From: Thalassospiraceae bacterium LMO-JJ14
GTDB lineage: Bacteria > Pseudomonadota > Alphaproteobacteria > Rhodospirillales > Casp-alpha2
Direction of reading: 5' to 3'
DNA length: 64,000 nt
Assembly: GCA_021555105.2 (NCBI GenBank)
Contig: CP134604.1
Span: 2,046,001-2,110,000 of the forward strand
Positions 30,092-31,470 of the stretch are shown here, piece after piece; the first letter of the stretch is position 1, and the number at the start of each line of letters is the position of its first letter. The translations under genes and the position numbers were made by a program. The notes beneath the pieces are model-generated. The model was not told the origin of the DNA. It saw only the letters and a list, made by a program, of their open reading frames with translations, and made no database searches.

Positions 30092-30928
30092 ATGGACGGC
30101 ATTCGCGAGACACTGGGCAATCTCGTAGATCATACCATTACACAGCGCTTCATCGTGTTTGTGCTGTTTCTGAATGCCGTGACCCTTGGTCTCGACACTT
30201 CCCCGGATGTTATGGGGCAGTACGGCGATCTGATCGATACCATCAACACAATCATCCCCGTTATATTCGTTATCGAAGTCGGTACCCGTTGGATTTCCAG
30301 AGGAAACCGCTTCTTCAAAGAATCCTGGAATATTTTCGATATCATCATTATTTCGGTTTCGTTCCTGCCGTCGGGAAGTGCTTTTTCAGCGCTCCGCGCA
30401 CTGCGTATCCTGCGGGTTCTGCACGTTATCTCTTTGGTGCCGAGAATGCGTCATGTCGTGGCGGCAATGATCCGTTCGCTGCCGCAGATCGGCTCGATTC
30501 TGGCCTTGCTGGTGATCATTTCCTACATTTCGGCGGTCATCGTGACGCATCTTTACGGGGCGGATTACCCAGAATTATTCGGTTCCATCGGGCGTTCGAT
30601 GCTGACACTGTTCCAGTTGATGACACTCGAAGGCTGGGCGGCTGAGGTCGTGCGTCCAGTGATGGAAACGCATCCGAATTCAGTGTTCCTGTTTATTCCC
30701 TATATGCTGATGACGGCGTTCGCCATTCTGAACCTGTTCACGGCGGTGCTTGTCGACAGCATGCAAATCCTGCAGCAGAATTATACTTATGAACGCTCAG
30801 AGCAGCAGACCGCGCGGGTCGTGACGACGGAGCTGATCGATGTCAAAGCCGACCTATTGAGTCTGACCCAGGAAATAAAGCAACTGCGCAACGAACTTGA
30901 ACGCACAAACAAAAACAGCAGTGCCTGA
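30092..30928 (+). CDS. Single-domain voltage-gated cation channel (bacterial Nav/Cav family)
   Basis: This is a 278-residue inner-membrane protein with six transmembrane segments. S1 is at about 18-36, S2 45-66 and S3 78-93. S4 (98-118) carries R102, R105 and R108 at every third position, with His111 where a further arginine is often found. The pore loop has the selectivity filter TLEGWAAEV at 178-186. S6 is at 197-224, and a C-terminal coiled coil (243-272) probably holds the tetramer together. The length matches NaChBac and NavAb. The ATG at 30092 was chosen because GAGGGA lies 9 bp upstream and it directly precedes S1. Classic sodium channels have LESW; Gly181 resembles the filter reported for prokaryotic calcium-selective relatives, so ion choice is open. 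No operon partner is evident. Confidence 0.9.
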   Translation: MDGIRETLGNLVDHTITQRFIVFVLFLNAVTLGLDTSPDVMGQYGDLIDTINTIIPVIFVIEVGTRWISRGNRFFKESWNIFDIIIISVSFLPSGSAFSALRALRILRVLHVISLVPRMRHVVAAMIRSLPQIGSILALLVIISYISAVIVTHLYGADYPELFGSIGRSMLTLFQLMTLEGWAAEVVRPVMETHPNSVFLFIPYMLMTAFAILNLFTAVLVDSMQILQQNYTYERSEQQTARVVTTELIDVKADLLSLTQEIKQLRNELERTNKNSSA

Positions 30929-31038: not shown

Positions 31039-31470
31039 ATGTTTCTAAATCTATTGACGGATCGGCAAAAGCAGTCGTTCCTCGCACTGGCAACGAAAAT
31101 CGTTATGGCCGATGGCGAGGTGGTGCCGAAGGAACACGTCACGCTGAATGTGCGGGTCGCTGAAATGGGCGGCAATTTCAAAGCGCCGCCTGACGAGATC
31201 TACGGAGAGCCTAATTTTGCTGTCTTCGATACACCGCTTTCACAGGCAATTGTCGTGCTGGAGCTTTTGGTGATTGCCTATTCGGATGAAGAATATCACG
31301 AGAATGAAAAGCCGATTGTCGATCAGCTCATCGACAAATTCGAGATATCGCCTGATCACTTGGAGATGTTCGAGAATTGGGCGAAACGGCAATCTCCGCT
31401 CAGTGTCGAAGGCTGGAACTTCTTATCAGAAGTCAGTCCTATCGGCGAGAACCCGGGCGGCGGCAATTAA
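31039..31470 (+). CDS. TerB-like (tellurite-resistance-like) domain protein
   Basis: This 143-residue soluble protein has an N-terminal helical motif LALATKIVMADGEVVPKE and a second related motif AYSDEEYHENEKPIVDQL around residues 80-100. These are typical of TerB-like domains, where acidic residues may bind metal. No other ter genes are near, so tellurite resistance should not be assumed. It starts 110 bp after the channel gene and ends 5 bp before the convergent rlmB. The exact function is unknown. Confidence 0.7.
   Translation: MFLNLLTDRQKQSFLALATKIVMADGEVVPKEHVTLNVRVAEMGGNFKAPPDEIYGEPNFAVFDTPLSQAIVVLELLVIAYSDEEYHENEKPIVDQLIDKFEISPDHLEMFENWAKRQSPLSVEGWNFLSEVSPIGENPGGGN

Follow-up and report, generated by a model that had tools for sequence, protein, structure and literature searches.

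A NavAb-like bacterial channel with a convergent Cav-like TLEGW selectivity filter

Selectivity filters of described channels

The BacNav filter motif has been stated as TLESWxxG (PMC4225499), and the filters of NavAb and NavMs, which read TLESWSMG, conform to it. The native prokaryotic Cav of Meiothermus ruber, CavMr, carries the filter TLEGWVD and reaches a PCa/PNa above 200, which falls to 11.9 in the mutant G4S; V6T also lowers Ca2+ selectivity, and D7M keeps a PCa/PNa of 144 (PMC7041947). Swapping the filters of NavAb and CavMr gave no current (PMC7041947), and filter rules may therefore not transfer between scaffolds. The same paper covers NavPp, reported with the predicted ancestral filter TLED(S)WTD, in which extra acids go together with Na+ selectivity and Ca2+ block (PMC7041947). 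It further states that Gly4 has not been seen in canonical BacNavs alongside a polar or acidic residue at position 7, and its own trees were unable to place the ancestor of the eukaryotic Cav channels (PMC7041947).

In NavAb, the single exchange S178G ("LivAb") yields a Li+-preferring channel with a PLi/PNa of 2.18 and a PCa/PNa below 0.01, and the double mutant S178G/M181A has values of 0.99 and 0.47, respectively; M181A raises PCa/PNa to 0.36–0.47 in this scaffold (PMC12919392). A sequence-only reading of the locus described here had noted that Gly at this position contributes to Ca2+ selectivity in prokaryotic channels near the base of the Cav lineage. This holds for CavMr (PMC7041947), but not for the Gly alone in the NavAb scaffold (PMC12919392).

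The channel gene, its conservation and its surroundings

In the window, the whole stretch of 64,000 nucleotides that was analysed, we delineated a gene for a single-domain Ion_trans protein with six transmembrane segments, consistent with Pfam, AlphaFold and structure matches (Table 1). Its nearest solved relatives are NavMs and NavAb (E-values of ~1e-58 to 1e-55). The AlphaFold model, computed from an alignment in which plasmid loci were left out, has a mean pLDDT of 91.6 and finds its best structural matches in CavAb, NavAb and NavMs. The protein presumably forms a homotetrameric, voltage-gated cation channel. Eukaryotic Cav channels possess four unlike domains per polypeptide; here there is one domain in 278 amino acids.

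Table 1 Features of the channel locus, in window coordinates.
Feature	Coordinates	Strand	Basis or remark
Voltage-gated channel CDS, 278 aa + stop	30092..30928	+	Ion_trans, E = 5e-40; same start kept in both sister-species orthologues (L001, L002)
Voltage sensor S1-S4, residues ~15-113	30134..30430	+	AlphaFold helices 15-34, 38-76, 78-90, 96-113
S4 charges R102, R105, R108, H111; His in place of the canonical fourth Arg	30395..30424	+	Translation, conservation
S5 pore helix, residues 130-155	30479..30556	+	AlphaFold model
P1 pore helix, residues 166-177	30587..30622	+	AlphaFold model
Selectivity filter and P2 start, TLEGWAAE, residues 178-185	30623..30646	+	Translation, alignments
Gly181 codon	30632-30634	+	Translation
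Glu185 codon	30644-30646	+	Translation
P2 pore helix, residues 182-193, NavAb-type length	30635..30670	+	AlphaFold model, alignment
S6 and C-terminal helix, one continuous predicted helix, residues 195-277	30674..30922	+	AlphaFold model
7032-aa ORF	8101-29199	-
143-aa protein with TerB match	31039-31470	+	Directly 3' of the channel gene

Translation from the ATG at 30092 gives T178, L179, E180, G181, W182, A183, A184 and E185. The numbering and the Gly at the usual Ser site of sodium channels thus agree with the sequence-only reading, as does its remark that the AAE tail is unlike NaChBac (ASG) and the described calcium channel (in CavMr, VD); the tail is unlike NavAb (SMG), too. It had likewise correctly described S4 as having three clear arginines plus His111, in the arrangement R102-x-x-R105-x-x-R108-x-x-H111. 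Among 104 aligned rows, the fourth charge position is Arg in 84 and Lys in 6, and His occurs in four members of the genus of the window channel and in a distant homologue (L157), the sole row with His outside that genus. His at this position is therefore typical of the window clade. Judged from the sequence, His111 should lower the gating charge, and pH-dependent gating through this residue is possible.

Orthologues with the identical TLEGWAAE filter were identified in two sister species of the same genus (G001 and G002), yielding dN/dS values of 0.09 and 0.11 relative to the window channel. The gene is under purifying selection and is a real gene, neither a pseudogene nor a chance ORF. Identity in these orthologues is 100% from S4 through the S4-S5 linker and 97% in the P1-filter-P2 region, with the filter and S4 unchanged in both species; S1-S3 (80 and 65% identical) and the C-terminus (62 and 50%) have drifted. 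The 97% identity of the pore region at a dN/dS of ~0.1 indicates that selection keeps the filter. We found an additional orthologue in the metagenome-assembled genome UBA4468 (DGOK01000120.1, 945-1590), which loses its frame after LNLFTA in S6, and a match in genome G006 with an internal TAA, in a partly masked stretch. These broken frames may be assembly faults or decaying copies.

The source genome encodes four Ion_trans proteins: the window channel, one canonical TLESWSM channel (L024, with the filter TLESWSMGIVRP) located ~42 kb from it, and two potassium channels with the filters TVGYGD and TIGYGD. The canonical channel is presumably Na+-selective; a TLESWSM channel is also present in both sister species and in G006. 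The neighbourhood is kept in the sister species as well, with a giant protein on the opposite strand, a TerB-like protein downstream and then a SpoU methyltransferase. The giant 7032-aa ORF contains long polyproline runs, cadherin-like/bacterial Ig domains and several laminin-G-type domains, and its N-terminal part adjoins the channel in both sister species. The order and strand of the gene encoding the TerB-match protein are conserved in both.

Descent and filter distribution

To place the channel independently of its filter, trees were built without the filter columns. The eukaryotic domains were left out of the final trees because of their very long branches, and 14 TLEDWTD/TFEDWTD rows from outside Alphaproteobacteria served as an ancestor-like group, as proxies for CavMr and NavPp. 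All NavAb-like channels, including the window channel, were separated with a support of 100/98 from this group, from the Bacillus-type channels (NaChBac, 4bgn) and from the TLSSWE (NavRh-type) channels. The window clade itself is supported with 100/100, and the deep branching within the NavAb-like part is poorly resolved. When the window clade was joined to the 14 proxy rows, the log-likelihood was lower by 135 and the tree was rejected (AU p = 1.6e-14). The window channel hence belongs by descent to the NavAb/NavMs-like radiation.

This placement, together with the Ion_trans match and the nearest solved chains, bears out the assignment to the Nav family in the sequence-only reading. The phylogeny that it had proposed puts the channel inside the ordinary sodium channels, the outcome that it had named as a refutation, and the kinship that it had drawn to prokaryotic channels near the base of the Cav lineage is not supported. 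The TLEGW core common to the window channel, CavMr and Cav3 domain I would fit a surviving basal member of the Cav or ancestor-like lineage, but the rejected clade with the proxies for the CavMr group, the NavAb-like placement and the NavAb-type length of P2 render such an origin highly improbable. Since the channel lies inside the NavAb-like group and the grouping with the ancestor-like proxies is rejected, Gly181 does not identify it as part of a basal Cav lineage.

With NavAb and NavMs, the channel shares the fold, length, P2 length, clade and the first three S4 arginines, but its filter has Gly for Ser4, Ala for Met7 and Glu for Gly8, and its S4 has His for the fourth Arg. Having lost both Ser4 and Gly8, it does not match the TLESWxxG motif. 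Another natural BacNav departing from this motif, the non-selective Bacillus channel NsvBa (TLDSWGSG; PMC4225499), deviates at other positions (Asp3, Gly6) and belongs to the Bacillus lineage. CavMr shares the TLEGW core and an acid near the outer mouth with the window channel, but has Val6 and Asp7 where the latter has Ala6, Ala7 and Glu8. Of the traits of the CavMr group, the window channel thus has Gly4, and the acid at position 7 is replaced by Ala184, with Glu185 following one residue later. In NavAb-like channels, the P2 helix begins with one residue more than its counterpart in Cav3.3 domain I and in the short-loop bacterial filters. With both MAFFT and phmmer, this one-residue gap falls so that Glu185 stands opposite the Glu in the TLEGWVE stretch of human Cav3.3 domain I and opposite the acid found in short-loop bacterial channels. 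Domain I of Cav3 (T-type), however, sits in a 24-TM protein alongside three other, dissimilar domains. The engineered NavAb S178G/M181A has residues identical to the window channel at filter positions 1–5 and 7; it was made together with N49K/T206A and has Ser6 and Gly8 instead of Ala6 and Glu8 (PMC12919392). In sum, the channel is NavAb-like by descent, and its filter resembles that of Cav channels by convergence.

Of 289 alphaproteobacterial genomes, 16 contain the exact string ATGACNYTNGARGGNTGG (MTLEGW) and 86 a member of the wider channel family. In 90 distinct sequences aligned from this sample, Ser predominates at filter position 4 with 59 occurrences, ahead of Gly (22), Asp (8) and Thr (1). 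TLEGW is a minority form, yet far from unique; the AAE tail was found, among the homologues collected, only in the genus of the window channel. The best tree required 12 changes between Gly and non-Gly at position 4 on the NavAb side, and an earlier tree required 7 among canonical-length filters, counts that do not separate gain from loss. A single clade of all canonical-length Gly4 filters was rejected (AU p = 0.0025). Ser and Gly have switched repeatedly inside the NavAb-like channels.

An acid (Asp or Glu) within three residues after the Trp was present on the NavAb side in 32/34 Gly4 rows versus 0/27 other rows, a biased sample because some loci had been collected via a TLEGW-containing peptide. 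In the alphaproteobacterial class sample, drawn regardless of the filter, 19 of 22 Gly4 genes have an acid after the Trp. Restricting the analysis to strongly supported branches left 4–5 independent pairs, too few for p < 0.05; random pairings were nearly all in the expected direction and none in the opposite one. On these branches the covariation of Gly4 and acid is thus suggestive and not significant. The acid does not always accompany Gly4, as seen for TTEGWPT/TTEGWPS in tandem pairs outside Alphaproteobacteria and for 3 of the 22 class-sample genes.

Two adjacent channel genes with differing Gly4 filters were observed on the NavMs branch (L019, L020, L021, L184, L187, L188 and L189), with TLEGWPDI beside TLEGWPDV, or TTEGWPT/S beside TMEGWPD or TSEGWPD. 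It is possible that these pairs form hetero-tetramers with an asymmetric filter. Further unusual filters in relatives (L064, L058, L144, L147, L161 and L163) are TFDDWSGG on a Microvirga plasmid, TGDDWGN in Nonomuraea, IMDGWAD/IMDGWAE and SGDDWYN.

Predicted ion selectivity

We lean towards interpreting the window channel as a convergent, Ca2+-permeable NavAb-like channel that discriminates weakly between Na+ and Ca2+, beside its TLESWSM paralogue. Such behaviour is to be expected because both changes of NavAb S178G/M181A are natural here, with an adjacent Glu in addition. Gly181 would remove the Ser hydroxyl and side chain from the outer mouth, making it wider and exposing the Glu180 ring. 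Ala184 takes the place of the Met (M181) that enables divalent exclusion in NavAb. Glu185, if oriented towards the entrance, would form a second acidic ring there, bearing four negative charges, at the site aligned with the acid of Cav domain I. The predicted outcome is a channel activated by depolarisation that would pass Ca2+ together with Na+, at a PCa/PNa clearly higher than that of NavAb S178G and probably from ~0.5 to some tens. Against this interpretation, Gly alone gives NavAb no Ca2+ selectivity (PMC12919392), the filter swaps between NavAb and CavMr yielded no current, and CavMr needs Val6 besides Gly (PMC7041947), where the window channel has Ala. Searching the literature, we found no paper on NavAb G182, the site of Glu185, and no recorded current for the window channel or close homologues.

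The filter might instead be a form of sodium-channel tuning, in which Gly181 raises the permeation of Li+ and Na+, and Ca2+ is excluded or only blocks. The Li+ preference of NavAb S178G, the position of the channel in the NavAb-like clade and NavPp, which pairs extra acids with Na+ selectivity, all agree with such a monovalent channel. We nevertheless regard it as rather unlikely, considering that the divalent-excluding Met is an Ala here, an exchange that lifts PCa/PNa in NavAb, and that a canonical TLESWSM channel is already encoded elsewhere in the genome. At the other extreme, a truly Ca2+-selective channel with a PCa/PNa above 100 could have arisen by convergence within the NavAb-like family, independently of CavMr. 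Cav domains I and III and CavMr combine Gly4 with an acid, and this pairing recurs in separate NavAb-like lineages, among them that of the Roseomonas filter TLEGWVED, which comes close to the filter of CavMr. NavAb S178G/M181A, however, reaches just 0.47, and the Val6 required in CavMr is Ala183 here. Because Val6 is absent, weak discrimination is more likely than strong Ca2+ selectivity, which we consider possible but quite improbable.

A wider and tentative proposal, somewhat doubtful at present, is that native calcium channels of prokaryotes arose several times from NavAb-like sodium channels, independently of CavMr, the window channel being one case in which the sodium-type paralogue was retained. 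Each conversion would have coupled the change from Ser4 to Gly with the loss of Met-Gly and the gain of an acid at the P2 start. Inside the NavAb-like family, Gly4 recurs together with an acidic position 7 or 8, in contrast to the statement in the CavMr paper on canonical BacNavs. Because this combination recurs in the NavAb-like scaffold, the one richest in structures, the filter step from Na+ to Ca2+ would be traceable in natural sequences rather than in designed mutants. The two filters within one genome would provide a matched native pair.
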